This document shows positions 14,201-54,337 of a DNA stretch of 64,000 nt, in pieces; the stretch's first letter is position 1; each line of letters opens with the position of its first letter. The stretch spans positions 1 through 64,000 of the forward strand of contig JADBYT010000002.1 in NCBI GenBank assembly GCA_020402865.1. Reading direction: 5' to 3'. Position numbers and translations under genes: made by a program. The notes under the pieces are model-generated. The model did not search any database. It saw nothing but the letters and a program-made list of their open reading frames with translations, and was not told the origin of the DNA. The stretch is from Bacteroidota bacterium (lineage in GTDB: Bacteria; Bacteroidota; Bacteroidia; Palsa-965).

Positions 14201-17200
14201 GCAGCCAGCAAACCATACAGTGGAGTGCACAGGGCACATCAGGAGTATATAATATCGAGTATTCGGTAAACGGTGGCAGTTCGTGGCTGCCGGTAGCCAC
14301 CAGCTTCTCCTCGCCCGGTCCCAACTGCTCGTTTACCTGGACAGTGCCCAACAACTTATCCAGCAACTGCCTGATACGCGTGACTGATGCGGCAAACAAC
14401 ACCCGCACCGACCAGAGCAACGCCATATTTACAATTTCGGCCTTTGCTGTTTCGGCCACGGCTTCGTCGGCATCGGTTTGTGCCGGTGCTTCCACCACGC
14501 TTACAGCCACGGGAGCGGCCAGCTATACCTGGCAGCCGGGCAACCTGAGCGGCAACACTATTTCGGTTACACCCGGCGGTACCACAACTTATACGGTAAC
14601 GGGCACATCGGGCGCATGTTCGGCGGTGGCTACGGTAACGGTAACGGTGTTGCCTTTGCCCACGGTAACGGCTTCGGCTTCATCCACCACCATTTGCCAG
14701 TCGGGCTCGGTTACGCTTAATGCTACGGGCGCCACCAGCTACCTCTGGTCGCCGGGCGGAAGTCTGAACATTTCAAACATTCAGTCGCCCACGGCATCGC
14801 CCACAGCTACTACTACTTATACCGTAACCGGTACCAACAGCAATGGTTGCTCTAACACCGGCACAGTAACCGTAACAGTAATTGCCGCAGGATCAGTATC
14901 GCTTACGGCATCGCAAAACAACATTTGCCCGGGCACCAACGTAACGCTTACCGCATCGGGCGCAAGTACCTACAACTGGCAGCCGGGCAATACATCGGGA
15001 GCTACACTCAGCGTGGCGCCTACGGCTACTACCACCTACACGGTAACCGGCACATCGGGTTCGTGCTCAAGCTCATCAACCATTACCATCACAGTAACCA
15101 CTCCGCCGGCGGTGAGCGTTTCTGCATCAGCAGCAAACATTTGCTCGGGCAACAGCACTACGCTAACGGCCAGCGGCGCAGCCACCTATGCGTGGACACC
15201 CGGCAACCTCACCGGCGCATCAGTGAGTGTGAGTCCTGCTGTAACAACTACCTACACCGTAATCGGTTCAAACGGAAGCTGCAACGATACTGATTTTGTA
15301 ACCATCACTGTTGCTCCCTCGCCGGCTGTTTCGCTTAGCGGCAACACCACAGTTTGCGCGGGCAGCAGTACTACACTCACTGCTACGGGAGCTACCTCGT
15401 ATCTCTGGCAGCCGGGCAACCTCAGTGGCAGCAGTGTAACGGTAACACCGTTGGCCACCACTACCTACACCATTACCGGCACTACCGGAAGCTGCACAGC
15501 TACGCAAACAATTACAGTAACAGTTAATCCGCTGCCCGCAGTGGCCGCATCGGCATCGCAAACCATTTGCACGGGTGCTACCACTACTGTTTCGGCCACA
15601 GGCGCAGTAACCTACAACTGGATGCCCGGCAACCTCAGCGGCGCATCAGTTGCTGTTACACCGGCATCAACTACTACCTATACGGTTACCGGTACCGGCA
15701 GCAATGGTTGCACCGCCACATCAACCACCACAATTACCGTTATCAATCCGCCCACCGTTACAGTGAGTGGTAATACTACACTTTGCGCCGGCAGCACCAC
15801 TACGCTTACGGCCAACGGCGCGGTAACCTATACCTGGCAGCCGGGCAACTTAACCGGAGCCAGTGTAACAGTTACACCTTCATCAACCACTACCTACACC
15901 ATAACCGGCACCACCGGAAGCTGCAGCGCCACGCAAACAGTAACCGTAACCGTGAATGCGGCGCCTGTAGTTGCGGCTACTGCTTCGCAAACGGTGGCCT
16001 GCACGGGTTCGCCGGTAACGTTAACCGCTACCGGCGCGGCTACCTACACGTGGCAGCCCGGCAACCTGAGCGGCAGCAGTGTAAGTGTATCACCGGTTTC
16101 GGCTACTACTTATACTGTAACCGGTACAGCGGCCAGCGGCTGTGCGGCTACGGCTACTGTGGCGCTCAGTGTACAAACTACGCCTACCGTTTCGGTAACG
16201 GGCAATAGTGTAATCTGCAGCGGTGGATCAACCACATTAACGGCTACCGGTGCGGCAAGTTATGTGTGGCAGCCGGGCAACTTCCCCGGAAGTTCGGTAA
16301 CTGTATCGCCTGCATCGGCCACTACTTACACGGTAACCGGCAGTAACGGCATCTGTACATCCACACAAACCTTTGCCGTAACCATTGCGCCCACACCCAC
16401 GGTAACAGCCACCGCGTCACAAAGTACGGTGTGCAGCGGCAGTCCTGTAACACTTACGGCTAACGGCGCTGCTTCATATACCTGGATGCCCGGCAACTTA
16501 ACCGGCGCTTCGGTTAGTGTAACACCTGCAACCACTACAACATACACAGTAACTGGCGTAAACGGCAGCTGCTCGTCCACAGCTACGGTAGCTGTAACCG
16601 TGTCGCCTGCTTCGCCGGTAACGGTGAGCGGAGCAACCTCTGTTTGCGCCGGCAGCAGCACCACGCTCACCGCATCGGGTGCGGCAAGTTATGTGTGGAT
16701 GCCGGGTAACCTTACCACTGCATCGGTTACACTTACACCTTCATCAACCACTACCTACACGGTTACCGGCACTTCGGTGAACGGATGTACAGCCACACAA
16801 ACCGTGCTTGTAACCGTGCAGCCGATTCCGGTAGTTACGGCTACGGGGCCTGCGTCGGTGTGTGCGGGTTCGCCGGTTACGTTTACGGCTTCGGGTGCAA
16901 CTTCATACACCTGGCAGCCCGGCAACTTCCCCGGAAATACATTAACTGTAACACCACTTTCAAACAGCACCTACACCGTTACCGGTGTGAGCGCCGGATG
17001 CAGCAACACAGCCACAGTGGCTGTAACAGTTGCACCCACGCCCACAGTTACAGCCACCGCTTCGTCGTCGTCAGTTTGTCCGGGCGGAACAGTAACACTT
17101 ACTGCATCGGGTGCAAGTTCATACATCTGGATGCCGGGCAACCTCAGCGGAAGCAGTGTGGTGGTTACGCCTTCAGTTACTACCACATATACGGTAACGG

Positions 17201-19911
17201 GTGTTGACGGAAGCTGCCAAACTTCTGCAACGGTTAGCATAACGGTAAATCCGGTAGCGCCTGTAACAGTTAGCGGCTCATCAAGCGTGTGTGCCGGAAG
17301 CGCGGTTACACTCACAGCAACCGGTGCAGCAAGCTATACGTGGCAACCGGGTAATTTAACCGGCAGCAGCATTTCAACCATTCCTTCAACCAACACCACA
17401 TACACTGTAACCGGACTCACCGCAGCGGGTTGTACTACCACAGGCACATTTGCGGTAACGGTATTGAGCGTTCCCGCAGTAACAGTAGCCGGACCGGCCT
17501 CTGTATGTTCGGGTAGTCCGGCCACACTTACGGCTTTGGGAGCAAGTTCATACACCTGGCAGCCGGGCAACTTTACCGGAAGCAGTGTAACAGTAGCACC
17601 GCTTGTTACTACCACCTACACAGTTGCAGGAACAAACGGCACATGCAGCGATACGTTATTGTATGTACTCACTGTTTCATCATCGCCGGTAGTTACGGCA
17701 GTGGCGGCACAATCGTCGGTATGTACGGGTGGTTCTACCACGCTTACAGCCAGCGGCGCCGCAGCTTATACCTGGATGCCGGGCAACCTGAGCGGAAGCA
17801 GCATTACGGTTACGCCTTCGGCCACCACTACTTACACGGTAACGGGTATAAATGGCAGCTGCAGCGCAACGGCTACAGTTACTGTTACCGTAAACTCATC
17901 GTTGCCGTTGTTTGCATCGGCTGCGCAGAGCAGTGTGTGCGCGGGAAGCAGCACCACGCTTACGGCCACAGGTGCCAGCTCATACACCTGGCAGCCGGGC
18001 AACCTGAGCGGCAGCAGCATTAATGTAACGCCGGCAGCAACAACTACTTATACCGTAACTGGCATAAGCGGTACCTGTTCGGGCACGCAAACGGTAACAG
18101 TAACAACCAATGCAGCGCCCAGCGTGGTGGTGCTTGGTGGCGGCAGTGTGTGTGCGGGCGGTTCGGCCACGCTTACGGCCAGCGGCGCGGCAAGTTATGT
18201 GTGGCAGCCGGGCAACCTGAGTGGCAGCAGCGTAACCGTTGCCCCCACGGTAAATACTACTTACACGGTAACAGGCACCGGCAGCAATGGTTGTACAAAT
18301 ACAGTTACTGTTTCGGTGAATGTGAATGCTGTGCCGGTAATTACAATTACGGGCGATGGTGTGATATGTGCTGGAAGCAGTTCGCAGCTTACTGCTTCGG
18401 GAGCAGCTAGCTATACGTGGATGCCCGGTAATTTGAGCGGGGCTTCAGTTTCTGTATCACCTGCAGTGAATACCACATACACGGTAACCGGTGTCGATTC
18501 GCTTGGCTGTTCGGCTACGGCGGTACAGTCTATTTTGGTAACACCATTGCCGGTAGTGCTGTTGAGCGGCAACACGCAGATCTGTTCGGGCGGAACTACG
18601 CAGCTGTTTGCTACAGGGGCTGCAAGTTATTTGTGGATGCCGGGCAACCTGAGTGACAGCAGCGTTACCGTGAATCCTGCAGCAACGACCACATACACGG
18701 TAACCGGCACTACGGGCAACTGTTCGTCCACCTCAACCATAACGGTAACGGTGAGTCCGTCGCCTGTAGTAACGGCTTCGGCGCTGCAAAGTGTTGTGTG
18801 TGCGGGCGGCTCAACTACGCTTAGTGCATCGGGGGCCTCGTCGTACATCTGGCAGCCGGGCAACCTGACGGGTGCTGTGGTGGCGGTATCGCCTCAGGCT
18901 ACTACAACTTACACCGTAACCGGCATAAGCGGCAACTGCAGCAGTACGGCTACTGTGCTGGTGACAGTATTGCCTGCACCGGCGTTGTTTGTGCAGCCTC
19001 AACCGCTCAGCATTTGTCAGGGAACCACAGCCACACTGGTGGCAGGTGGTGCGGCAAATTACCTGTGGCAGCCGGGCAACGTAAGCAACGATTCGCTCGT
19101 TGTGGCACCCTCGGTAACCACTACATACACTGTAACTGCAACTGATGCAAACGGATGTACAGCCACTACTACAGCCACAGTAAACGTAGGCACTGCGCCG
19201 GTTGTAAGTGCATTTGCAAACAACACGGTTATTTGTGCCGGCGATGCGGTTACACTCAATGCCGTAGGTGCTGATGTGTACAGCTGGATTCCGGGCAACC
19301 TCGGCGGTTCGTCTGTTTCATCCACACCTGCATCAACCACAACCTATACGGTAACCGGCACCACCAGCAACGGCTGTTCATCAACCGACACCATTACCGT
19401 ACAGGTGAACGCTTTGCCCGCGGTAAGTTTTGCCCTGAGTAGCGACACTGTGTGCAGCGGCGAGGCTCCGTTTGCCCTCGGCGGTGGTATTCCGGCCGGC
19501 GGCACATACAGCGGTCAGGGTGTGGTGGCCGGGCAGTTTGACCCCATGAATTCGGGCACCGGACTTATCCAGATCACCTATTCATATACTGATCCGGTAA
19601 CCGGCTGTGCCAACACCGCTACTGATCTGATGTATGTGGATCCGTGTGCGGGTGTGAATGAAAGCACAGGTAATACCGTTTCGTTTACACTGTATCCGAA
19701 CCCGGCCGATGACAGGGTAACGCTGGTGTACAGCATGTGGAGCGGGCCTGTATCGGTGATTATGTACAATTCACTCGGCCAGCAGGTGAGCAGTGTTCAG
19801 CTTACCGGCGTACAAACCGACATCAGTTTGCGCGATTTGCCGGTTGGTGTGTATCACCTCACACTGATTACATCCGAAGGAACCACCACACAGAAAGTAA
19901 TTAAACAATAA
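8245..19911 (+). CDS. Giant T9SS-secreted repeat protein: 21 SPNGGE-type plus 23 Ig-like domains
   Basis: 3,888 residues, about the largest protein type in such genomes. Signal peptide 1-22 (ends VNAQ). Residues about 23-2065 hold 21 copies of a beta-sandwich unit of about 97 residues, each opening SPNGGE.W or SPNTAVTW and containing YSTDNG.TW and QCLVRV; this pattern resembles the Kre9/KNH-like Ser-Thr-rich family. Residues about 2068-3722 hold 23 Ig-like units of about 72 residues with VCAGSSTTLTA, W.PGNLSG and TTTYTVTG. A single GG(I/L)PAGG.Y.G.GV domain follows, then a T9SS type A domain (FTLYPNPADDRVTL to QKVIKQ). No catalytic motif is seen. Likely role: long surface stalk or adhesin, exported by T9SS. 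Thr, Ser and Asn make up much of the chain; each domain tends to carry two Cys. Monocistronic, with its own promoter-like box and strong terminator. Confidence 0.95.
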   Translation: MKKFLLLLLLCVAGFATRVNAQTVTVTSPNGSEIWPACAQRTISWTATGTSGFYNVDYSTNNGVTWASIATFLNATSLNWTVPNVQSTTCLIRVYDSYNNTVVDQSNAVFTINAAVRVTAPNGGESWQVGNPATQQITWVASGTSSFVTIEYSIDAGNSWTVISNSVSATSGSYTWTIPNTPSSQCLVRVRDNNTPCMADVSDNLFTIVAPTPQITVTSPNTAVTWYVGYSNTIQWTSQYVTNPFVAIDYSTDGGTTWTVITTSTNNSGSYNWTVPNTPSSQARVRVKDAANPSTFDISNVNFTIAVPVPTINISTPNGGETWSTCLSYNINWTNTFVTGNYNIEYSLNNGGSWSTIVNNVSGSGYIWQVPNTIATSSQCLIRVSSASNPSVFDVSNATFTINQVQYVAITSPNGGESWQIGNPATRAITWAWSGTTNTFRIEYSTDNGATWNIIMSSVTVSSSPASFTWTLPNTPAALCLVRVSDANNLCRSDVSDNPFSLLAPTPVITVTNPNTATTFFVGSSYSITWTSQYVTNPFVGIDYSTDNGTTWSVVTSSTNNNGSFTWTVPNTPSTQCLVRVKDAANPTTIFDVSNVNFTIAVPVSVITVTSPNGGETWNSCSNYNISWTSSNVTGNFRLEYSADGGSTWTLITTVSASPFSWQVPNNIPTSTQCLIRVSSVSNPAITDISNASFTINQIQFIAITSPNGGEVWQVGNPATRTISWAYSGTTTLFTLDYSTDNGVTWNSITTATFSSSPANYTWTIPNAPSTQCLVRVRDANNTCRADQSDAIFTIQPPTPTITVTSPNTAVTWFIGQNYSISWSSQFVTDPFVAIDYSIDSGATWINIISAVNIGAGSYSWTVPNTPSTAAYVRVRSTANPTTIFDVSNIDFTIATPVPSITLLSPNGGESWNSCVNYSISWTSQFVTGNFRLEYSDDNGSSWNTITTVSSGPFSWQVPNNIPTSTQCLIRVVSVNNPAVLDASNAVFTINQIPYIALNSPNGGEVWQVGNPNSQVITWAYSGTTTLFTIDYSTDNGVTWSTIITTNFNTSPASYTWTIPNTPSTQCLVRVRDANATCRADQSNNVFTIQAPTPTITVTSPNTAVTWYVGQTYSISWSSQFVTDPFVSVEYSTDNGSTWATIVSSVNTSTGSWSWTVPNTPSTTALVRVRSTINPTTIFDVSNVTFTIAPPISTITLTSPNGGENWNTCVNYGISWTSQFVTGNFRIDYSTDNGLTWTTIVTVTGSPYTWQPPGTIATSSQCLVRVVSVSNPAVLDVSNAVFTINQVPYVAITSPNGGENWQVGNPNTQTITWAYSGTTTLFTIDYSTDNGVTWSSIITTTFSSSPASYTWTIPNTPSTQCLVRVRDANATCRGDQSNAVFTIQPPTPTITVTSPNTAVTWFIGQSYSINWSSLYVTDPFVSIDYSTDNGSTWTTLLSSINTSTGSWSWTIPNTPSTTALVRVKSTLNPATIFDISNVNFTIATPVPAITLTSPNGGELWNSCVAYSISWSSQFVTGNFRLEYSADNGATWTTITTVTASPFSWTVPNNIPTSSQCLVRVVSVNNPTVLDASNNVFTINQVPYIAITSPNGGEIWQVGSPATRTISWAYSGTTTLFNIEYSTDNGASWTSITTANFSTSPANFTWTVPNTPSAQCLVRVRDANATCRSDVSDAVFTIQAPAPVITVTSPNTSVLWGVGGVYAINWTSQFVTSPFVAIDYSTDGGATWTNIVSAVNTTAGTYNWTVPNTLSNQCRVRVRDNTSPAVNDISNVNFSIVPAITVTSPNGGENWGGCTVSSVTWTAYGTSGSFRIEYSLDNGQNWVTVISSFAASGPNCTYSWTIPHVNSAICLVRVSDAAVPTKMDISNNVFTMFPAIIVTNPSNNVAVFAGQTLNIAWTSNGVSNFYNIDYSINGGSSWISIVFNTLITTNTFAWTVPATLSTNCLVRVTDNQNTCKQDISDGTFAISSSTANVVITAPNGGENWVACSQQTIQWSAQGTSGVYNIEYSVNGGSSWLPVATSFSSPGPNCSFTWTVPNNLSSNCLIRVTDAANNTRTDQSNAIFTISAFAVSATASSASVCAGASTTLTATGAASYTWQPGNLSGNTISVTPGGTTTYTVTGTSGACSAVATVTVTVLPLPTVTASASSTTICQSGSVTLNATGATSYLWSPGGSLNISNIQSPTASPTATTTYTVTGTNSNGCSNTGTVTVTVIAAGSVSLTASQNNICPGTNVTLTASGASTYNWQPGNTSGATLSVAPTATTTYTVTGTSGSCSSSSTITITVTTPPAVSVSASAANICSGNSTTLTASGAATYAWTPGNLTGASVSVSPAVTTTYTVIGSNGSCNDTDFVTITVAPSPAVSLSGNTTVCAGSSTTLTATGATSYLWQPGNLSGSSVTVTPLATTTYTITGTTGSCTATQTITVTVNPLPAVAASASQTICTGATTTVSATGAVTYNWMPGNLSGASVAVTPASTTTYTVTGTGSNGCTATSTTTITVINPPTVTVSGNTTLCAGSTTTLTANGAVTYTWQPGNLTGASVTVTPSSTTTYTITGTTGSCSATQTVTVTVNAAPVVAATASQTVACTGSPVTLTATGAATYTWQPGNLSGSSVSVSPVSATTYTVTGTAASGCAATATVALSVQTTPTVSVTGNSVICSGGSTTLTATGAASYVWQPGNFPGSSVTVSPASATTYTVTGSNGICTSTQTFAVTIAPTPTVTATASQSTVCSGSPVTLTANGAASYTWMPGNLTGASVSVTPATTTTYTVTGVNGSCSSTATVAVTVSPASPVTVSGATSVCAGSSTTLTASGAASYVWMPGNLTTASVTLTPSSTTTYTVTGTSVNGCTATQTVLVTVQPIPVVTATGPASVCAGSPVTFTASGATSYTWQPGNFPGNTLTVTPLSNSTYTVTGVSAGCSNTATVAVTVAPTPTVTATASSSSVCPGGTVTLTASGASSYIWMPGNLSGSSVVVTPSVTTTYTVTGVDGSCQTSATVSITVNPVAPVTVSGSSSVCAGSAVTLTATGAASYTWQPGNLTGSSISTIPSTNTTYTVTGLTAAGCTTTGTFAVTVLSVPAVTVAGPASVCSGSPATLTALGASSYTWQPGNFTGSSVTVAPLVTTTYTVAGTNGTCSDTLLYVLTVSSSPVVTAVAAQSSVCTGGSTTLTASGAAAYTWMPGNLSGSSITVTPSATTTYTVTGINGSCSATATVTVTVNSSLPLFASAAQSSVCAGSSTTLTATGASSYTWQPGNLSGSSINVTPAATTTYTVTGISGTCSGTQTVTVTTNAAPSVVVLGGGSVCAGGSATLTASGAASYVWQPGNLSGSSVTVAPTVNTTYTVTGTGSNGCTNTVTVSVNVNAVPVITITGDGVICAGSSSQLTASGAASYTWMPGNLSGASVSVSPAVNTTYTVTGVDSLGCSATAVQSILVTPLPVVLLSGNTQICSGGTTQLFATGAASYLWMPGNLSDSSVTVNPAATTTYTVTGTTGNCSSTSTITVTVSPSPVVTASALQSVVCAGGSTTLSASGASSYIWQPGNLTGAVVAVSPQATTTYTVTGISGNCSSTATVLVTVLPAPALFVQPQPLSICQGTTATLVAGGAANYLWQPGNVSNDSLVVAPSVTTTYTVTATDANGCTATTTATVNVGTAPVVSAFANNTVICAGDAVTLNAVGADVYSWIPGNLGGSSVSSTPASTTTYTVTGTTSNGCSSTDTITVQVNALPAVSFALSSDTVCSGEAPFALGGGIPAGGTYSGQGVVAGQFDPMNSGTGLIQITYSYTDPVTGCANTATDLMYVDPCAGVNESTGNTVSFTLYPNPADDRVTLVYSMWSGPVSVIMYNSLGQQVSSVQLTGVQTDISLRDLPVGVYHLTLITSEGTTTQKVIKQ
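8311..14440 (+). repeat. 21 SPNGGE-type domain repeats with 882-bp three-domain superperiod
   Basis: Domains come in an A-B-C order: A opens PNGGE(T/S/N)WNSC, B opens PNGGE.WQVGNPATR, C opens PNTAVTW(Y/F)(V/I)G. The Pro codon of successive A domains is at 8329, 9193, 10078, 10960, 11842, 12724 and 13594, giving steps of 864, 885, 882, 882, 882 and 870 bp. The first six triplets are regular; the last three domains (from 13594) are divergent. Confidence 0.95.
14446..19410 (+). repeat. 23 Ig-like domain repeats of about 216 bp
   Basis: The W(Q/M/T/S/I)PG motif occurs 23 times at intervals of about 215 bp, from 14532 to 19288. Each unit has a VC-G start, W.PG in the middle, TTTYTVTG near the end and a G.C following. 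Codon choices differ between units, so most copies are not very recent. Confidence 0.92.
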
Positions 19912-41937: not shown

Positions 41938-42178
41938 TTGCAGAGTATTAAGGTTAACAGCAATTTACAAGAAATAGCAACAGAAACTTGTATCAGGGCA
42001 TATTAATTTCATGATTTTGTCCATGTAAATCCTTTATTTCTTTCTTGCTGCACCCCAAAGTCTGAAATTCTGGTTTTGATTGTTGTTAAAGGAAGTTGTT
42101 ATTCACAAAAGATTATTTACCTTGTCGAGCCCTGTTGTAAACTCAAAGTCAACACACTACAAGGAAAAAATCCCAAAC

Positions 42179-44272
42179 ATGAAAAGAATTATACTGTTCA
42201 GCGTATTTGCGCTTGGTTCGGTAGCTGCTTCAGCACAGTGTACCACTACCAATGCCACATCCTGCCAATGCCAGAACGCGCAGCAAACCAATTGCGACCT
42301 TTTACCCGATATTACAATATCGTGGCAAGGCATCAGCAACGGTGGTTACACAGAGTATTCGCAGAACTCAACCGACATGACGTACAATCAGGGCCCCAAT
42401 GCCGGTCGTTTGCGTGTAACGGGTTCTACGCCAAACATTGGCCATGGCCCGCTCACGGCACGTGGTGTGGACTCGCTGGGCTATCGCTGGTTCATTTGCG
42501 GAACAGATACATTTTCAATTTACGATCCGAACTCCACACAGCAGTTTACCTGCCCCAACGGGAATCCCTCTCCTCACCAGATCATTTTCCAGCGGATCTA
42601 TCACAAAAACGGTAATACCATGACTTACCGTGAAGAATCGGCCGGAACAATGACCTATCATCCCACTCACGGCCACAACCACGTGGATGCCTGGGGCGTG
42701 TTCACACTTCGCATCGAAGATCCGAACGATCCGAATCCCACTCACTGGCCTATTGTAGGTCAGGGTCAGAAAATGGGTTTTTGCCTTATGGATTACGGCC
42801 AGTGTGGCTCAAGCTCATACATTGGGCACTGCCGCGATACCAATACCGTATATAACAACGGTAACATCCTCATCAACTCAAATTTCCCCAACTGGGGCCT
42901 CGGCGGCGGACAGTACAACTGTTCGCAGGTTGAGCAGGGAATTTCATCGGGCTGGACGGATGTGTACGGTAAGCACCTCGACGGGATGTGGATTAATATT
43001 CCTCCCGGCACGTGCAACGGCAATTACTGGATTGTGGTAGAAGTTGATCCGAACAACAACTTCGTTGAAGAAGATGAAACCAACAATTACACCGCAGTAC
43101 CCGTAACGCTTACCCAGCAAAACAGCAGCAACCCGATCATTACTATTGCTGCAAACCGTAACCCGGTAATTTGTCCGGGCGAAAATATCACCCTCACTGC
43201 ATCGGCCGGCACCGCGTTCCTCTGGAGCAATGGCGCCACCACACAAAGCATCACCGTAAACCAGCCGGGCAACTATACCTGTCAGGTTACCACGTTCTGC
43301 GGCAGCGGCACAGCTGTATTTAATGTCTATGCCTCGGCAGTTGTAAACCAGCCCGTAGCGGCCGGCGATACCGCCTGTGTGAACACAACCATTACACTTA
43401 ACGCCAGCGGTCCCGGTACATTGAAATGGTATGATAACGGTGGTAATTTTGTGGGTACGGGCAGCAGCTTCATTACACCGCCCATCACCGCATCAACCAC
43501 ATTCTACGTTGAATCTGTAGTGTCGCAAACCGATACCACACATGCCACGCCCCACAACAAAAACATGGGTAGCGGAAGCAACGTAACCTCTGCTCAGTAC
43601 GAAATCTTCAACGTATTTACAGCAGCCACACTGCTTGATGTAAAAATCTACGCCAACGCTGCCGGAAACGTTACTATTCAGCTTCAGGACTCAACCGGCG
43701 CCATGCTGCAGTCGCAGGTAGCTACACTGGTAGCCGGCGAACAGCGCGTTACGCTCAATTTCAACCTTACACCCGGCAACAATTATCGTTTGGCCGCTAC
43801 CGGCACCAACCCCGGTCTTTTCCGCAACGATGGCGGTGTGAGCTACCCTTACGACCTGCCCGGCGTACTGCGCATTGTAAACTCATCGGCCGGTTTGGCA
43901 CGCTACTATTACTTCTACGACTGGAAAGTAGCCACCACCAACGAAACCTGCGCCAGCGTACAAACCGCAGTGCCGGTAACTATGGATCTCTGCCTCGGTC
44001 TTGGCGAAGATCCCGGCTTCCGCCAGTCGCTCAGCGTAGCACCCAACCCGAACAACGGTGTGTTTAACCTCAGTTTCAATGCCTACAACCGCAGCGATGT
44101 AGCTGTGTTTGTAACCGACCTCACTGGACGTGCGGTTTACAACGAAACCATGCAGGGCACACAGGGCAAAGTAATGCGCGAAATCAATCTCAACGGCCTT
44201 GCCAAAGGAGTATATATGCTTAATGTAGTGTACGAAGGCAAGTCGTATGTAGAGAAAGTAGTGATTGATTAA
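42179..44272 (+). CDS. Secreted lysyl-oxidase-like copper amine oxidase with Ig-like and T9SS domains
   Basis: 697 residues from the ATG at 42179 (signal peptide 1-20, MKRIILFSVF to SAQ; an upstream opening to 42080 is ignored). Residues about 38-305 match the lysyl oxidase family: a PDI opening, H161-PTHGHNH (H164, H166, H168: copper ligands), K198 in QKMGFCLMD and Y263 in GWTDVYGKHLDGMWI, the Lys and Tyr that in animal LOX form the LTQ cofactor, then VVEVDPNNNFVEEDETNNY. The family oxidises lysine side chains to aldehydes that crosslink proteins. Next come an Ig-like unit, a carbohydrate-binding-like sandwich (about 500-620) and a T9SS type A domain (LSVAPNPNNGVFNL). It is followed after 8 bp by a propeller gene. 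Confidence 0.9.
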   Translation: MKRIILFSVFALGSVAASAQCTTTNATSCQCQNAQQTNCDLLPDITISWQGISNGGYTEYSQNSTDMTYNQGPNAGRLRVTGSTPNIGHGPLTARGVDSLGYRWFICGTDTFSIYDPNSTQQFTCPNGNPSPHQIIFQRIYHKNGNTMTYREESAGTMTYHPTHGHNHVDAWGVFTLRIEDPNDPNPTHWPIVGQGQKMGFCLMDYGQCGSSSYIGHCRDTNTVYNNGNILINSNFPNWGLGGGQYNCSQVEQGISSGWTDVYGKHLDGMWINIPPGTCNGNYWIVVEVDPNNNFVEEDETNNYTAVPVTLTQQNSSNPIITIAANRNPVICPGENITLTASAGTAFLWSNGATTQSITVNQPGNYTCQVTTFCGSGTAVFNVYASAVVNQPVAAGDTACVNTTITLNASGPGTLKWYDNGGNFVGTGSSFITPPITASTTFYVESVVSQTDTTHATPHNKNMGSGSNVTSAQYEIFNVFTAATLLDVKIYANAAGNVTIQLQDSTGAMLQSQVATLVAGEQRVTLNFNLTPGNNYRLAATGTNPGLFRNDGGVSYPYDLPGVLRIVNSSAGLARYYYFYDWKVATTNETCASVQTAVPVTMDLCLGLGEDPGFRQSLSVAPNPNNGVFNLSFNAYNRSDVAVFVTDLTGRAVYNETMQGTQGKVMREINLNGLAKGVYMLNVVYEGKSYVEKVVID

Positions 44273-46761: not shown

Positions 46762-47460
46762 TCACTGCTTAAACTCGGCCGCAAATGCCCGCGAGGCATG
46801 AATTTCCATGCCGTTGAGCAACACAAAAGTTAAGCCGCGGCCGCTTCGCCTGATGGTTTGAATGTGATTGCGGTTTACGAGCTGGCTGCGGTTTATTTTG
46901 AGGAAATGATGTTCGGGAAGTTCGGACTGAAGGCGTTTGAGGGTGATGAACTTGAGCACCTTTTTATCGCGGAAGTAATAGCACACGAAATTCCCGTCGG
47001 ATTCGAGCAAATACACTTCCGATAAATCCGTGAGGTAATGCTGTGTGCCCGACTGTAGCATGATTCGTGTTTTGCTGAGGTCTTTCGAGGCCGATTCCTG
47101 CTGTTTTTGAAGCAGCCGGGCTATACATTTTTCGAGCCTGTCCTGCTGTACGGGTTTCAACAGGTAATCCACGGCATCGGTCTCGAAAGCCTGCAGGGCA
47201 AACTGATCGTAAGCCGTGCAGAAAACCACATGGGGCAGGTAACTCAGTCGCTTGAGCAGCTCGAACCCGTTGTGCGGCGGTATTTCTATATCGAGAAAAA
47301 TTACATCAGGCCTGTAAGCGGCAATCATTTTCTCCGCCTCATCAGTCTGCGTGGCAATACCTGCAATTTCGATTTCCGTATAGGCGCGCAGCAGATCGGC
47401 CATTTCTTCGCGGGCCGGACGTTCATCGTCAATTATTATTGCGCGAAGTTTATGAAGCAT
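46762..47460 (-). CDS. LytTR-family response regulator
   Basis: 232 residues, ATG start. Receiver domain 1-120 with D11-D12, phosphoacceptor D57 in FLDIEIPPHNGFELL, T81-A in FCTAYD and K102 in LLKPV; LytTR DNA-binding domain about 130-232 (MLQSGTQHYLTDLSEVYLLE, FLKINRSQLVNRNHI). It pairs with the histidine kinase whose reading frame overlaps its start by 11 bp. It binds direct-repeat sites upstream of targets, typically cell-surface genes. Given the location at the end of the cytochrome/copper-oxygenase operon, self-regulation of that operon is likely (inference). Confidence 0.95.
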   Translation of the reverse strand: MLHKLRAIIIDDERPAREEMADLLRAYTEIEIAGIATQTDEAEKMIAAYRPDVIFLDIEIPPHNGFELLKRLSYLPHVVFCTAYDQFALQAFETDAVDYLLKPVQQDRLEKCIARLLQKQQESASKDLSKTRIMLQSGTQHYLTDLSEVYLLESDGNFVCYYFRDKKVLKFITLKRLQSELPEHHFLKINRSQLVNRNHIQTIRRSGRGLTFVLLNGMEIHASRAFAAEFKQ

Positions 47461-48499
47461 ACAAAGGATGTTTTATAACCACCTGAACCATAGGCCCGGC
47501 AAGTTCCCGAATGGAAACAGAATCGGTTTCGGGTGTAACGTTATTTAAAAGCGCGTCTATGCTTTTCAGCCCGAAACCCGGTTCAATACCTTCGAGCTTC
47601 CCCGTGTTTTCAACTACAATGAGAATATGTTCTTTCTCCTGTGTAATGCGGATGCCGATTAATCCCGAGCCGGTAATTTTTGATATTCCGTGTTTGATGG
47701 CGTTTTCAACCGTATTCAACAGCACAAACGGAATGATGAAATTGCCGCCCACACCTTCATCGACAGAAATCGAATAATTTAAACGCTCATCGAATCTGAT
47801 TTTTTCGATTTCAAGATATTGACTCACAATACTGATTTCATCGTCGAAGCGGCGTTTTATCGCACTGTCGGTTAAGTTGTAGCGAAGTATATTACTCAGT
47901 TTATCCAATGCCCCGGGTGAACTCTGGTGGTTGTTTTTTACCAGCCAGCGAATCGTATTCAATGTATTGAACATGAAATGCGGGTTGAGCTTGGATACCA
48001 TATTTTCGTACTGCAACCGCTGAACCAATTTTTCCTGCTCCAGCAACTTGTTGCGTAGCTGGTGCTGGGCCTCAATGTATTTGTAAAAATGAAACAGGAG
48101 GAACCAGGGAATGACTTCCACCACATTCTCAATAACGATAACCAGATTAATGCCAATTAGCGAGCCGTTCGACTTCCCGGCCAACGTTTCGAGTTCCTGC
48201 TTCACCGAAGGATCAACCTGAATTACCACAACCTGATAAACTGCCAGACTCAGAAAACACCCGATTGTACATACCAGAATCGACTTTCGGATATTCGTAT
48301 AGTCGTGCTTTCGCCAACGCAGTATTTCGCGATACGCCGATGAGATTGCCACACCCAGAATGCAGATCAGCAACACATAATCCCACGGAAAAAATTCATC
48401 CATTCCGGCCAGATAGCCCGGCACAATACGATACATACCGAATAAAATCCAGTACAGCGTATTGATCAGATAGAATTTGCGGTTACGTGCTATACTCAT
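47450..48499 (-). CDS. LytS-type sensor histidine kinase
   Basis: 349 residues, ATG start. Four helices between residues 12 and 140, a coiled-coil region (145-168) and a His_kinase domain with the phosphoacceptor H174 in LNPHFMFNTLNTIRWL, followed by a HATPase region with LLNTVENAIKHGISK. No extracytoplasmic sensor domain of note; the four helices with short loops suggest sensing in or near the membrane. The stop overlaps the LytTR regulator start by 11 bp, indicating translational coupling, and the start lies 26 bp after the beta-barrel gene, so it belongs to the operon that begins with the cytochrome lipoprotein at 50594. Confidence 0.95.
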   Translation of the reverse strand: MSIARNRKFYLINTLYWILFGMYRIVPGYLAGMDEFFPWDYVLLICILGVAISSAYREILRWRKHDYTNIRKSILVCTIGCFLSLAVYQVVVIQVDPSVKQELETLAGKSNGSLIGINLVIVIENVVEVIPWFLLFHFYKYIEAQHQLRNKLLEQEKLVQRLQYENMVSKLNPHFMFNTLNTIRWLVKNNHQSSPGALDKLSNILRYNLTDSAIKRRFDDEISIVSQYLEIEKIRFDERLNYSISVDEGVGGNFIIPFVLLNTVENAIKHGISKITGSGLIGIRITQEKEHILIVVENTGKLEGIEPGFGLKSIDALLNNVTPETDSVSIRELAGPMVQVVIKHPLYAS

Positions 48500-48525
48500 T
48501 CATGCAAATATATCGGCAAAGCCGG

Positions 48526-49143
48526 TTACAAATGCCAGCGAACTCCTATACCTGCCACCGAAAAACTGGCTCCGAGCGGAACATCGCTGCTAAACCAGTT
48601 GCGAATGACAATCACATTGCCGTTTACAAACACATCGAGCGGTAATTTGGTGAAGCGATAGCCCAACTCGGCCTGCGGCCGAATAATTTGCCGGGTATAG
48701 ATAAACTTGCCGGGATAAGTCATTGCCACCCATTTTTCGCCATTGTATTTATAAACCAGGTCAGCGCGCCTTGCCTGTTGCATGCCCAGGCCAATTTCCC
48801 AGCCCCCATAAAAGCCTTTGAACAGGCGATAATTTCCGCCAATGGTTAAATTGAACTGAAAACTTTCATCGACCAGCGTGTTTTTGTGAAACCCGATTTC
48901 GATTCCCGCATAGGTGCGCCTGTTGTGTCTGACTTTGAAATTGTAGTCGGCCGAAGCATAGAAATAGGGATGAAGCACATTAAACACCTTATTCTCCACC
49001 CCAATTACTTTCACAAGATTGAAGTTTCGCGTTTCGGAAATTCCGGCTTCAAAGCTCCATTTCCCGGAAAATTGTTTTTCCGAATCCTGCGCATTTACCG
49101 CACTGGCAAAAGCAAGGAATGCCATACACAATATTTTTTTCAT
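48526..49143 (-). CDS. Small outer-membrane beta-barrel protein
   Basis: 205 residues from the ATG at 49143 (a GTG directly before it is ignored). Signal peptide 1-18 (ends VNAQ). The mature protein is a chain of amphipathic strands rich in Tyr, Phe and Gly (FEAGISETRNFNL, YAGIEIGFHKN, YRLFKGFYGGWEIGLGM, ELGYRF) ending in aromatic/hydrophobic VRWHL, typical of an 8-stranded barrel. No known family was identified. It lies 5 bp after the copper oxygenase gene and 26 bp before the kinase gene. It could be a channel or anchor for the two lipoproteins in this operon (inference). Confidence 0.75.
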   Translation of the reverse strand: MKKILCMAFLAFASAVNAQDSEKQFSGKWSFEAGISETRNFNLVKVIGVENKVFNVLHPYFYASADYNFKVRHNRRTYAGIEIGFHKNTLVDESFQFNLTIGGNYRLFKGFYGGWEIGLGMQQARRADLVYKYNGEKWVAMTYPGKFIYTRQIIRPQAELGYRFTKLPLDVFVNGNVIVIRNWFSSDVPLGASFSVAGIGVRWHL

Positions 49144-49148
49144 CACGT

Positions 49149-50090
49149 TCAGGGATTGAAGTAATAGTAAAACAGGTAATTCATCTCGTCTTCGCTGGTT
49201 ACACCATAACTCACCGTGTTGCCGGTTTCATTACGGTAGGTAACAATGGTGCGCAGTCCCTGCCCGGCTTCGAGTATGAGCGGAGTGTTTATGAAATAAC
49301 CCACTTCCGGGTGCTGATAATCGTAGCTCGTGAGAATGATTTCCCCATCGCGCGGGCCGCCCACAATCTGTACTTTAAATTCCTGCCCGCGTTTGTGGTA
49401 GTGCGGTGTCATGAGCACAATTTGCGTGCGTCTCGTAAACAGCTCTTCGGTGGTAATGGTGGTGGTGGCATTGGGCGGAAGGCTGAACGACTCGTTGCCC
49501 AGCACACCGTTTTCCACAATCTGCTGAACCTGATTTCGCGGCAGCGTGTACAGGTTGCAATACACTTCACCGAAACGGGTGTTGTCGGTGCGGTTGAAGT
49601 AATGCGAATTGCAAAGAATTTTCATGTCGGCCGGCATACGCAAACCATAGCCTGGCGGAAGTGCCAGGGTATATTCCGAACTCTGTGCTTCGTACAGAAT
49701 GAAATCACGATTTACCGTCGATAACAAATTGAACGTGCCGTCGAAATTGTTCTGATCGTACATCACATCCGGTTCGGGCAGTGGAAAATTCCCGTCCGAA
49801 TAAAGGGTACTGAGTACAAAATGATGTGTGCCCGAACGGCATTTGCTTGTAATCCGGTTCACGAAAATTTCTTCGCTGTTGTGCAGGTCGCGGCGAATGA
49901 AAATTTCGCGCTCGAAATTGGCCGGAATCGGAAACGGCTCGATATGCAGTTGATAACCGCTGTCGGCTGGCAATGGTGCCAGACCTGTCCAGGCCGGAAT
50001 ATCGTTCGGGTCGTAATCGACTGTTTTTTTGCAGGAGCCGGCAAGCAACAGTATTGTGCCGCCAAGCAACAATAAATTTTTCATGTGCAT
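49149..50090 (-). CDS. Lipoprotein of the copper type II (PHM/DBM-like) monooxygenase fold
   Basis: 313 residues from the ATG at 50090 (or 50084). Lipobox at LLLAGSC (C20). All six copper ligands known from peptidylglycine hydroxylating monooxygenase can be placed: H89-H90 in SGTHHFVL and H163 in CNSHYFN (CuH site), H230 and H232 in TPHYHKRG and M303 in TSEDEMNYLF (CuM site). The spacings (73, 67 and 71 residues) are close to those in PHM (64, 70 and 70, from H108 to H172, H172 to H242, H244 to M314). The family hydroxylates C-H bonds with O2 and two one-electron donations from ascorbate. The disulfide pattern of animal PHM is largely missing. Substrate unknown. It lies 6 bp after the cytochrome-like gene. 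Confidence 0.85.
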   Translation of the reverse strand: MHMKNLLLLGGTILLLAGSCKKTVDYDPNDIPAWTGLAPLPADSGYQLHIEPFPIPANFEREIFIRRDLHNSEEIFVNRITSKCRSGTHHFVLSTLYSDGNFPLPEPDVMYDQNNFDGTFNLLSTVNRDFILYEAQSSEYTLALPPGYGLRMPADMKILCNSHYFNRTDNTRFGEVYCNLYTLPRNQVQQIVENGVLGNESFSLPPNATTTITTEELFTRRTQIVLMTPHYHKRGQEFKVQIVGGPRDGEIILTSYDYQHPEVGYFINTPLILEAGQGLRTIVTYRNETGNTVSYGVTSEDEMNYLFYYYFNP

Positions 50091-50096
50091 TGATGA

Positions 50097-50594
50097 TTAA
50101 TGTGCGTGTAGTAATCGGTAATCGGCCACCACACCTGTGCGCGGTGCTCCGGCAGCAATCCATTGCCGTATAAATTCGATTTCATTACCCGTGAGCGGGT
50201 TGGCTCCCAACGGCATTTCGTTTCCGAAATGAAATTGCGGAAAAGCATTCCAGTTTACCTTATGATACAGAAAACTGCTGTCGGGCACACCCGGTTTCAC
50301 TAATGTTAAACCGCTGTCGAGGGCTTGCGTATTGCGCGGAACCACGTTCACCAGTCGTTCGTAAACATCGCCCCCTTCGAGCACTAATCCGTGCTGCTGG
50401 TTGGTGGCTTGTGCAGCACTGTGGCAGCCCGATGTGCTGCAGTTGTGCTTGAAAATATGCTGTTTCATATTTTCGAAACTCGCCAGATTGGGATCAACAG
50501 TTTCCGCGGGCTCTGCAGACTCGCGTTTGCAGCCATTCAACACACTAAGGGAAATAACTCCGGTAAACAAAATCAGATTCAGGACTACACGCAT
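50097..50594 (-). CDS. c-type cytochrome-like lipoprotein (CX4CH heme motif)
   Basis: 165 residues from the ATG at 50594 (the frame opens to 50711, but the lipoprotein signal MRVVLNLILFTGV to LNGC22 starts here). The mature part has C52-STSG-C57-H58, a CX4CH heme-attachment motif, with M127 in GNEMPLG as a possible sixth ligand, plus LVKPGVPDSSFLYHKV and EIEFIRQWIAAGAP, all of which fit the planctomycete-type cytochrome (PSCyt1) family. CX4CH is unusual but known in that family; heme attachment is therefore likely, not certain. It is the first gene of the operon with the copper oxygenase-like protein, the barrel and the LytS/LytTR pair, and could feed electrons to the copper enzyme. Confidence 0.82.
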   Translation of the reverse strand: MRVVLNLILFTGVISLSVLNGCKRESAEPAETVDPNLASFENMKQHIFKHNCSTSGCHSAAQATNQQHGLVLEGGDVYERLVNVVPRNTQALDSGLTLVKPGVPDSSFLYHKVNWNAFPQFHFGNEMPLGANPLTGNEIEFIRQWIAAGAPRTGVVADYRLLHAH

Positions 50595-50693
50595 GGCAAT
50601 GAATTTTGAATCAAAACTAATCAGGCCATACGGCAAGGCATGACACATCTTGATAAACCGGAAAAATACTTGACGAACGGAACACAAAATACA

Positions 50694-50758: not shown

Positions 50759-53700
50759 TTACTTCAGCAACGATACATGACCGGTAAGCTTCTGTACCCG
50801 CCCGGTGAAGTCTGTGGCAACAATTTTATATACATACACATCCTGCTGGGCTACTTCTGCTCCTTTATTTGCGGTACCATCCCAGCCAATTTCCATTTTG
50901 TCTGTGGCAAAAATATGGTTGCCCCAGCGGTCGTATATATCCATGTTGAAGGCAATTATTTCAAGTCCTACGGCCATAAACACATCGTTTTTGCCATCGC
51001 CGTTGGGTGTAAAGGCATTGGGCACAAAAAGTGTCTGCTCCGGATTTACCTCAATGGTTTGCCAGGCAGTATCGGTGCAGCCGCCATCGCCGGTTACTAC
51101 CAGCATTACCTGATAGGTGCCGCGTCCGCTGTACGTGTGCGTGGGCGAAGGTGTGGTGGACGTGGTAGTGTCGCCGAAATTCCAGAACCAGCCCAGCGTG
51201 TTTGCCGATGAAAGATCGGTAAAGATTACAGTGGGTTCGAGTGTGGTAATTTCGGTTGATGATGCGATGAATGATGCGTTGGGTGAAGCGTAAACCGTAA
51301 CCTGCACCACAGTAGAAGCATTGCCAGCACAACCAGCGGCTGATGTGGCCACCACATTTATGGTGTATGTGCCGCTCACCGGATAGTCGTGAAACACCGG
51401 CGAGCCTGTGCCCGTGTTGCCATCGCCAAAGTCCCAGGCATAGAAGCAACTGCTGTTACCGGCATTGTTGTCGAAAATTGTCAGCCGTGCTTCGTCGCAA
51501 CCGCTTATGGTTTGCGGCTGCAGCAATACTACAGGCAGCGCATTCACCGTAACCTGCGTGCTTCCGGTAACCGATACATTGCACACATTGGTAGCTGTTA
51601 CCACATACGTAGTAGTTGTTTGTGGTTGCACGGTGTAAGGCCCTGCCGTATTCCATCCGGCCACATTCCAGTTCCAGAGAATTGGTCCGGTGTTGCCGGT
51701 AACCGCACAGCTTACTACAGCTGTATTACCTGCACAAATACTGGTTGACGGGCTCATGCTCAGGTTGGCCGGAGTAAACTGGAATACATCAAGCACAATT
51801 GTATCGGCGGGGCTTGCGCATCCGCTAGCATCAACAGCCTGTACAATGTAGCTTGTGGCTTGTGCAGGATACACCGTGTACTGCGGACCGTTGCCCAGCG
51901 GCACATTCCAGTTGTAGGTGTAAGGCCCGTTGCCGCCATTGCCCATAGCCGAAATTACAGCAGGCTGTGCAGGACAAACCGTATCGTTGCCGAGTGTGGT
52001 TATTGTAACCGGCGTTGGCTCAAGAATGGTAACCGTGGTTACTGTGGCACAGCCGTTGGCATCGGTTATACTTACGGTTTGCGTGCCTGCTGCAAGGTTG
52101 TTTGCAAACGGCGAAGTTTGCACCGGCACCGTACTCCATGCGTAGCTGTAAGGCCCGGTTCCGCCGGCAGCTGTAATGGAGGCGCTGCCGTTGTTGCCGC
52201 CGTTGCAGGTTACATTGCTTGCACCGCTAATGGTGGCCGAAAGCGGTGCCGGCTGCGAAATATTGGCTACTGTTAATGCCTGGCAGCCATTGCCGTCGGT
52301 GATACTTACTACGTAAGTGCCTGCCCCCAGATTAATAGCCGCCGGACCCGATTGCGCGGGGACACTGTTCCACGTGTACACATACGTACCCGTGCCGCCC
52401 GACGCAAGTACCTGCGCCGCACCATTGCTGCCTCCGTTGCACGAAACCGGTGTGGTGCTCACAAGTCCGGTAATGGCTGCTGGCTGCGTGAGTATAATGC
52501 TGCCTTGTGTCGTGCAGCCGTTATCGTCGGTAATGCTTACCGCGTATGTACCTGCACCTAAGCCGGTGGCCTGTGCCGTTTGCTGTGCGGGGGTGGTGCT
52601 CCAGTTAAACGTATAAGGTGTGGTGCCGCCGCTGACAGCTGCAAGAGCTGCACCGTTTGTATTTCCGTTGCACAAAATCGGTGTGGTAATGCTGGTGTTT
52701 ACACTCAGTGCTGCAGCAGGTTGTGTAATGGTTACCGTGCCCGTAGAAATGCAGCCATTGGCTGTGGTTACGGTTACACTGTAGGTGCCGGGTGCAAGGT
52801 TGTTAAGCGTGGCTGTGTTGCCGCCGTTGCTCCACACATAGGTGTAGGGTTGCTGGCCGCCGTTCATGTTGGCGTTGGCCGATCCGTTGTTGTTGCCAAA
52901 GCAGTCAATATCGGTGCTGCTCATTACCAGATTGCCTGGTGCAGCACCCTGTGTAACGGTTACGGTTTGCACCATCTGGCAGCCGCTGCCGTCGGTAACG
53001 GTGCAGCTGTAGGTGCCGGGCGTGAGACCGGTGGCTGTTGCATTGTTGCCGCCCGACGGGGCCCACGTATAACTGTAAGGCGATTGACCGCCCGAAGCAA
53101 GCACTGCTGCTGATCCGTTGGAGGCATTGCAGTTGGCCGGTGAACTGGTGGCGCTGGTGGCAAAGCCGGTAACCGTAATGCAATAGGCAAATGTTTGTGA
53201 GCCGGAATACGGGCAGTTATCATCGCTTACTGTAATGGTAAAGCAGTGCGGCACATTGCTGATATCGGCCGGGCCGGGTGTCCATGTAAATGTGCCTACG
53301 GGCAGCGGGCCGGCCGTTTGTGTAAAGGTGGCGTTGGCAATGCTGTTGTTCCAGCTCAGCGTAATGTTCTGATTCGGATCGGGATCAGAGGAGTTTACAA
53401 AGAAGGAAAGTGTGTTGCCGGCACATACACTGATGTTAAAGTTGCTGGTGTTGTTTATGCCCGATACGGCAGGCAGCGTGTTTGTACACATAATGGTGCG
53501 TAACTGAATATCGCGCACTACGCTGCCAATGAGAATGCCGTTTCGCCATTCTTCCACGCGCACAGCCATTACCGTTACCAGCAGCTGCGAAGGCGTCATG
53601 CAAATATCACCGTTGGTGGTGTTAAACGTCATGGCCGGGTTTGATGCTACCGGCTGCGTAGCGGAGTAAGGTGTAACGTAGGTTACAGTGGATGTGGCAC

Positions 53701-54337
53701 TATTGGCGGGCGGTATGAGCGCATACACCAGTGAGTCGCCGTCGGGATCAGTTGCACCGTGGTTGAAGCAATAGCTTTGACCTACGCATACAAACGGGAT
53801 CGGCCTGTTTGAGAAGGTTGGTGAATTGTTGCAGGGCGCGTTCAGATTATTGAGCAGCGACTGCACAAAAATGTTCTGCGATCCAGGATTCTGAATCGTG
53901 CTGATCGCATTGTTGCGGCAGCAAAAATTAAAACTGAACACCCAGTCGGTACACGCCATTGGTAATGTGACGGTGCCTTCGTAGATGAATTCTTGTACGC
54001 CCGGATTTTGACCGCCGTTGCAAACGGTCAGCATGTTTGGACAGATGGGCGTAACGTCCTGTCCGGTTCCTGCAATGGGGTTGAGGACGACAGAGAGGGA
54101 TTGGTTGCAGGAGACTGAAGCAATGTCTATAGTGACATTATTGGGCGCCTGACTACCGCTGCAATCGCGGTAAAAGGCGAGGCGTAACAGGTATTGGTTG
54201 CCGCCAAGGCAGGTGTAGGTTAAATCGGCGCCCTGCGCATGGGTGGCTTTCAACTGATGGTTTGCCAATGGCAATAATGCCAGTATCATCAGGAAGCGCA
54301 TCCAATTAACCCGGGTGTGTGTGTAGCTTATTCCCAT
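50759..54337 (-). CDS. SprB-repeat/PKD gliding-type surface protein with T9SS type B C-terminus
   Basis: 1,192 residues, ATG start (M13 is an alternative); a GGAGA tract 9 bp upstream is Shine-Dalgarno-like, rare here. Signal region 13-34. Residues about 35-395 are beta-rich with many Cys and DPDGDSLVYALIPPAN. Five SprB repeats follow (about 398-775) with C.G..NG.A, GGT.PY.Y.W and GAGTY.VSITD.NGC. Then Ig/PKD-like units, two with WDFGDG or WNFGDT. The last 90 residues start LFVPNAFTPNGDGKND (about residue 1100), the 'gliding motility-associated C-terminal' (type B) T9SS domain, ending GHVSLLK. SprB is a mobile adhesin in gliding flavobacteria; this smaller relative may serve attachment. Has its own terminator. 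Confidence 0.93.
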   Translation of the reverse strand: MGISYTHTRVNWMRFLMILALLPLANHQLKATHAQGADLTYTCLGGNQYLLRLAFYRDCSGSQAPNNVTIDIASVSCNQSLSVVLNPIAGTGQDVTPICPNMLTVCNGGQNPGVQEFIYEGTVTLPMACTDWVFSFNFCCRNNAISTIQNPGSQNIFVQSLLNNLNAPCNNSPTFSNRPIPFVCVGQSYCFNHGATDPDGDSLVYALIPPANSATSTVTYVTPYSATQPVASNPAMTFNTTNGDICMTPSQLLVTVMAVRVEEWRNGILIGSVVRDIQLRTIMCTNTLPAVSGINNTSNFNISVCAGNTLSFFVNSSDPDPNQNITLSWNNSIANATFTQTAGPLPVGTFTWTPGPADISNVPHCFTITVSDDNCPYSGSQTFAYCITVTGFATSATSSPANCNASNGSAAVLASGGQSPYSYTWAPSGGNNATATGLTPGTYSCTVTDGSGCQMVQTVTVTQGAAPGNLVMSSTDIDCFGNNNGSANANMNGGQQPYTYVWSNGGNTATLNNLAPGTYSVTVTTANGCISTGTVTITQPAAALSVNTSITTPILCNGNTNGAALAAVSGGTTPYTFNWSTTPAQQTAQATGLGAGTYAVSITDDNGCTTQGSIILTQPAAITGLVSTTPVSCNGGSNGAAQVLASGGTGTYVYTWNSVPAQSGPAAINLGAGTYVVSITDGNGCQALTVANISQPAPLSATISGASNVTCNGGNNGSASITAAGGTGPYSYAWSTVPVQTSPFANNLAAGTQTVSITDANGCATVTTVTILEPTPVTITTLGNDTVCPAQPAVISAMGNGGNGPYTYNWNVPLGNGPQYTVYPAQATSYIVQAVDASGCASPADTIVLDVFQFTPANLSMSPSTSICAGNTAVVSCAVTGNTGPILWNWNVAGWNTAGPYTVQPQTTTTYVVTATNVCNVSVTGSTQVTVNALPVVLLQPQTISGCDEARLTIFDNNAGNSSCFYAWDFGDGNTGTGSPVFHDYPVSGTYTINVVATSAAGCAGNASTVVQVTVYASPNASFIASSTEITTLEPTVIFTDLSSANTLGWFWNFGDTTTSTTPSPTHTYSGRGTYQVMLVVTGDGGCTDTAWQTIEVNPEQTLFVPNAFTPNGDGKNDVFMAVGLEIIAFNMDIYDRWGNHIFATDKMEIGWDGTANKGAEVAQQDVYVYKIVATDFTGRVQKLTGHVSLLK

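Follow-up and report, generated by a model that had tools for sequence, protein, structure and literature searches.

The catalytic core treated here is known from animals, where related enzymes complete the maturation of peptide hormones and synthesize noradrenaline. Both PHM and DBH are driven by ascorbate, and how electrons reach the two coppers, and cross the long distance between them, is a matter of debate. A heme domain feeding a copper monooxygenase is familiar from cellobiose dehydrogenase, whose cytochrome serves lytic polysaccharide monooxygenase. That pair differs from the present one in having unrelated folds, a b-type heme, a single copper and a polysaccharide substrate. In DBH the N-terminal DOMON domain has a cytochrome-domain fold from which the heme ligands are absent, and the enzyme uses ascorbate (PMC4846438). 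The cytochrome-fed form of this core was not found described: among the titles and abstracts listed from the open full-text literature, a scope outside which most subscription journals fall, there was no description of a bacterial cytochrome-PHM protein, and no NCBIfam model names such a form. The original prediction had likewise known of no described system with the composition of this locus, and the open literature agrees.

A five-gene unit with a PHM/DBH-type copper protein

We analyzed a 64,000-nucleotide stretch of a Bacteroidota contig, hereafter the window. Its minus strand carries five open reading frames spaced by 6, 5 and 26 bp, with an 11-bp overlap between the last two, exactly as originally described. 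They are predicted to encode a mono-heme c-type cytochrome lipoprotein of 165 aa (50594-50097), a dicopper monooxygenase lipoprotein of 311 aa resembling PHM (50084, or 50090, to 49149), a putative barrel of about 205 aa whose gene is found beside split-type PHM genes (49143-48526), a LytS-type sensor histidine kinase of 349 aa (48499-47450) and a LytTR response regulator of 232 aa (47460-46762). In a Pfam scan of the five, the names above cut-off were Cu2_monoox_C, His_kinase (PF06580, 78.8 bits) and Response_reg plus LytTR (PF00072, 70.3 bits; PF04397, 61.0 bits); the cytochrome and barrel proteins are recognized by motifs and, in family scans, by weak matches only. The 5' border of the unit is the intrinsic terminator (50727-50692, minus strand) of the upstream gene at 50759-54337. 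With a 16-bp stem containing 9 G-C pairs and a fold of -28.8 kcal/mol (z -7.0 vs shuffles), this strong terminator separates the five genes from their upstream neighbor. The fully linked five-gene set was seen in the window's genome only. Base composition bears no sign of recent transfer, although the split-type gene is absent from all six congeners (0/6). The viral contigs searched contained no relative.

The PHM-like protein scores barely above the cut-off for PF03712 (Cu2_monoox_C; 23.7 bits against 23). An AlphaFold model built with an eight-sequence alignment (pLDDT 83.7) matched rat PHM with a Z of 22.6 at 2.8 Å over 258 residues and human DBH with a Z of 21.0, vs 9.7 for PNGase, the next unrelated fold. 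The model thus predicts the double jelly-roll catalytic core of the PHM/DBH type. Both copper sites are represented by candidate ligands, a His-His pair and a third His for CuH (H87, H88, H161) and a His-x-His and a Met for CuM (H228, H230, M301). These positions fit the CuH ligands H107/H108/H172 of rat PHM (PMC6123673) and the ligands H262/H263/H333/H412/H414/M487 of human DBH (PMC4846438). Across the 44 PHM domains that we aligned, all six ligands (HH, H, HxH, Met) are invariant, and so is the Glu neighboring the labile CuM Met (44/44 in each case). Judged by alignment and model, the window protein is an intact PHM/DBH-type catalytic core with both copper sites complete, which bears out the earlier assignment of a PHM-like copper oxygenase.

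The differences from the animal enzymes lie around this core. In contrast to PHM, the protein is a bacterial lipoprotein, bearing a signal peptide of its own and the lipobox AGSC18, it is partnered by a c-type cytochrome that is usually fused to it, and it has no lyase domain. With DBH and tyramine beta-monooxygenase it shares the core and, in its fused relatives, an extra domain N-terminal of the core; this partner, however, bears a c-type heme motif, whereas DOMON lacks heme ligands. The substrate pocket differs as well. We take Arg240, Asn316 and Tyr318 of PHM to be the residues that bind the substrate carboxylate. Among the same 44 domains, the Arg240 position (-2 of HxH) is T, F, W, S or Y and never R, the Asn316 position (Met+2) is hydrophobic or aromatic and never N, and the Tyr318 position (Met+4) is mostly Phe, as in the window protein, with Tyr in 3. 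By these residues the window protein does not qualify as a peptidylglycine hydroxylase, and its substrate is therefore probably not a glycine-extended peptide.

The cytochrome partner, its fusion in relatives and a split clade

The cytochrome lipoprotein (lipobox LNGC22) contains a single CX4CH at residues 52-58 and a downstream Met127 within MPLG, and it shares 33-43% identity with the N-terminal region of the fused relatives. Profile methods say little about it: the nearest model, TIGR03806 (diheme c-type cytochrome), gives 21.6 bits, far below its cut-off, and a PDB profile search returned no useful match. The PSCyt1-like label given to this gene at the outset finds no support, since PF07635 does not match the window protein and appears, below threshold, in the relative L003 only. 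In an alignment of 40 sequences, the homologous heme position alternates among CX4CH, CX3CH and CX2CH with CH always kept, and the downstream Met is kept in 39. This pattern argues for CX4CH as a genuine heme site; the motifs fit a c-type cytochrome with a putative heme attachment site of unusual spacing and a distal Met. The same variation from CX2CH through CX3CH to CX4CH is seen inside one domain family in the cytochrome parts of L045, L046 and L048.

Of the 395 genomes sampled from the phylum, 22 contain a close relative, with 23 matches in all, and 21 of these 23 unite cytochrome and PHM in a single protein, the cytochrome always N-terminal and the PHM domain C-terminal. Among the genome_contigs relatives the two share one ORF in 11/13, a count that includes L020 despite a frameshift in its copper domain. 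A frameshift also interrupts L017, near-copies of which are intact, and L019 is PHM alone. In the T9SS-exported fusions L003 and L006, too, the PHM domain comes after a CXXCH cytochrome domain, but L003 ends in a Por_Secre_tail sorting domain and they form a distant outgroup in the tree. The window's genome itself holds a paralogue (L064:5556-7121, plus strand; C2:401.9 kb), one ORF of roughly 521 aa in which CXXCH precedes a distant PHM-like region.

A separate PHM gene occurs in the window and in four genomes from another family (G476, G577, G673 and G733). In our tree these five form one clade (support 99/99) nested inside the fused forms, for which a single fission event is the simplest reading. 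G476, G673 and G733 have a separate cytochrome gene just upstream of the PHM gene, whereas G577 has no adjoining one. Since cytochrome and PHM are fused in most relatives, we infer a dedicated electron donor, and the originally proposed cytochrome powering the copper oxygenase is to this extent upheld. A cytochrome nearby is nevertheless not obligatory, because L019, G309 and G577 have none beside PHM.

The third gene is less easily named. In G476, G673 and G577 a protein of about 205 aa, 18-21% identical to the window's, is encoded right behind PHM in the same order at a distance of 2 to 8 bp, so that the gene adjoins PHM in all four split-clade genomes with sequence there (4/4); in G733 the contig ends. 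It was not found in other genomes of the window's own order. No Pfam score exceeds its cut-off, the window protein reaching 17.1 against 27 for DUF6048 and a relative 16.4 against 28.7 for OMP_b-brl, and the fold from a single-sequence model (pLDDT 33) was not usable. An outer-membrane beta-barrel is thus a plausible but weak assignment. Other weak barrel matches outside the split clade (G629, G651, G704, G710 and G588) were set aside, as they stand beside serine-hydrolase-like genes and not PHM. Distant barrel-like genes of about 200 aa likewise lie directly upstream of serine-hydrolase-like lipoprotein genes in several genomes of the same taxonomic class (L076, L095-L099).

By comparative sequence evidence, then, cytochrome and copper core, joined in the split clade by the barrel, are a conserved module, and within that clade cytochrome, PHM and barrel form a conserved trio, the G577 cytochrome excepted. 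Recruitment of the barrel there is a new detail. On the synteny check proposed with the original prediction, linkage of cytochrome and PHM is conserved, the barrel belongs to the module in the split clade only, and the sensor pair is absent next to the module in almost every relative.

The sensor pair and alternative readings of the locus

The kinase (motifs LNPHFMFNTLN, NAIKHG and GFGL; PF06580) and the Response_reg/LytTR regulator make up a LytS/LytTR pair. For its transcription we looked at TAnnTTTG, which in flavobacteria serves as the sigma-A -7 box (PMC9723704). On the minus strand of the unit it occurs at two sites only, namely the promoter-like boxes TAGTTTTG (50612-50619) before the cytochrome gene and TATATTTG (48505-48512), 5 nt before the kinase start codon, while both strands of the whole window hold 29 instances vs 49 expected, a depletion. 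With so rare a motif this close to its start codon, the kinase is probably transcribed from a start of its own, which may be leaderless. Two further such sites in the window also lie 5 nt before gene starts; boxes at this distance from start codons hint at leaderless mRNAs in the lineage. A scan for E. coli-type promoters gave fewer sites than shuffles, none of which fits the unit. For the single five-gene transcript once proposed, the tight spacing speaks in favor and the box before the kinase against.

Were the five genes a true regulated system, LytS would sense substrate, copper or redox state and LytTR would drive one transcript. Apart from the tight spacing, two relatives fit this picture: in G733 a LytS/LytTR pair on the same strand immediately precedes cytochrome-PHM, its kinase being the best of 10 matches to the window kinase in that genome, and G577 has another pair about 4 kb away, behind opposite-strand genes. 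Yet the pair is missing beside the module in G476, in G673 and at the fused loci L008-L020 and L057-L063. Moreover, the kinase and regulator of G733 resemble those of the window no more than unlinked LytS/LytTR proteins do, and a tree of the 7 usable full-length kinases, too long-branched to be informative, does not join the two kinases. With 16 matches to the window kinase in the window's genome, one such neighbor among four other genomes could be chance. The kinase's own -7 box and a search that found no direct repeat of the LytTR-site type ahead of either the cytochrome or the kinase gene count further against regulation of this kind, which we consider unlikely. Control by 'its own sensor' therefore lacks support as a conserved feature, the pair being non-adjacent in three of five split-clade genomes and in all fused loci examined. 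Rather, the pair appears to be a local addition, read from a promoter of its own or from a shared one, and it could, but need not, control the module.

Two other readings concern the core itself. The PHM-like protein might not be an oxygenase at all, and might bind, store or sense copper with the cytochrome as its redox partner in envelope copper handling. The loss of the PHM substrate-binding residues, the lack of a linked substrate gene and the lipoprotein location would suit such a role. Storage, however, does not need the catalytic dicopper geometry, whose six ligands are unchanged throughout the alignment down to the labile CuM Met and its neighboring Glu, and the neighbors listed include no copper transport gene; we regard this role as improbable. 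The separation of the two genes could in principle be artefactual, an ordinary fused gene broken by a sequencing error or a frameshift, given the frameshifted copies in L017 and L020. But the signal peptide and lipobox at the start of the window's PHM protein have no counterpart at the junction of the fused proteins, and the PHM genes of the split-clade relatives begin in the same way. The same separate gene in four other genomes of one clade, three of them with a separate upstream cytochrome, refutes an artefactual origin, and we give it virtually no weight.

A proposed cytochrome-fed copper monooxygenase in Bacteroidota

Where the module would act is suggested by its lipoboxes, which both the cytochrome and the PHM-like product possess. 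In Bacteroidota, lipoprotein export signals following the Cys include K-(D/E)2, SDDDD and SDDFE (PMC5080379). Residues +2 to +6 read KRESA in the cytochrome and KKTVD in the PHM-like protein, so that neither carries a known signal, although these may not be the signals of this lineage. The earlier description of a surface-exposed hydroxylase thus finds no support in known export signals, and the default reading is that both lipoproteins sit in the outer membrane facing the periplasm. Surface exposure may still occur, since a T9SS sorting domain is present in distant relatives such as L003. The window also encodes, on the plus strand, a T9SS-tailed Lysyl_oxidase protein (42080-44272; PF01186, 34.8 bits), which adds another exported copper-enzyme family some 2.5 kb from the unit, and a T9SS-tailed giant of 3888 aa with Reelin-like and Ig-like repeats (8245-19911).

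The reading we favor, with somewhat better than even confidence, is that the core of the locus is a putative cytochrome c-fed dicopper monooxygenase of the PHM/DBH type, accompanied by a split-clade barrel and a local sensor pair. In this enzyme, respiratory electrons would pass one at a time through the His/Met-ligated heme to CuH, and CuM would bind and use O2. The substrate hydroxylated at a C-H bond would be small or peptide-like, though not a glycine-extended peptide, and the cytochrome would replace ascorbate as electron source. In the split clade, the barrel from the same operon would probably, though on weak grounds, either let substrate or product cross the outer membrane or anchor the complex. 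The frequent fusion suggests that these copper enzymes draw electrons from a cytochrome of their own and not from vitamin C.

More broadly, and at slightly less than an even chance in our estimation, the module may represent a widespread, undescribed and ascorbate-independent class of PHM/DBH-type enzymes in Bacteroidota, in which a covalent c-type heme, on the same polypeptide or on a separate lipoprotein, feeds the copper from the respiratory chain, and of which one clade is split and paired with an outer-membrane barrel dedicated to the passage of substrate or product. If this holds, a bacterial form with a built-in heme donor would offer a one-polypeptide system in which electron entry could be followed by the color of the heme and set by its potential. 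It would also suggest, speculatively, why DBH has a heme-less, cytochrome-like DOMON domain on its N-terminal side: the class may have possessed a donor domain from early on.
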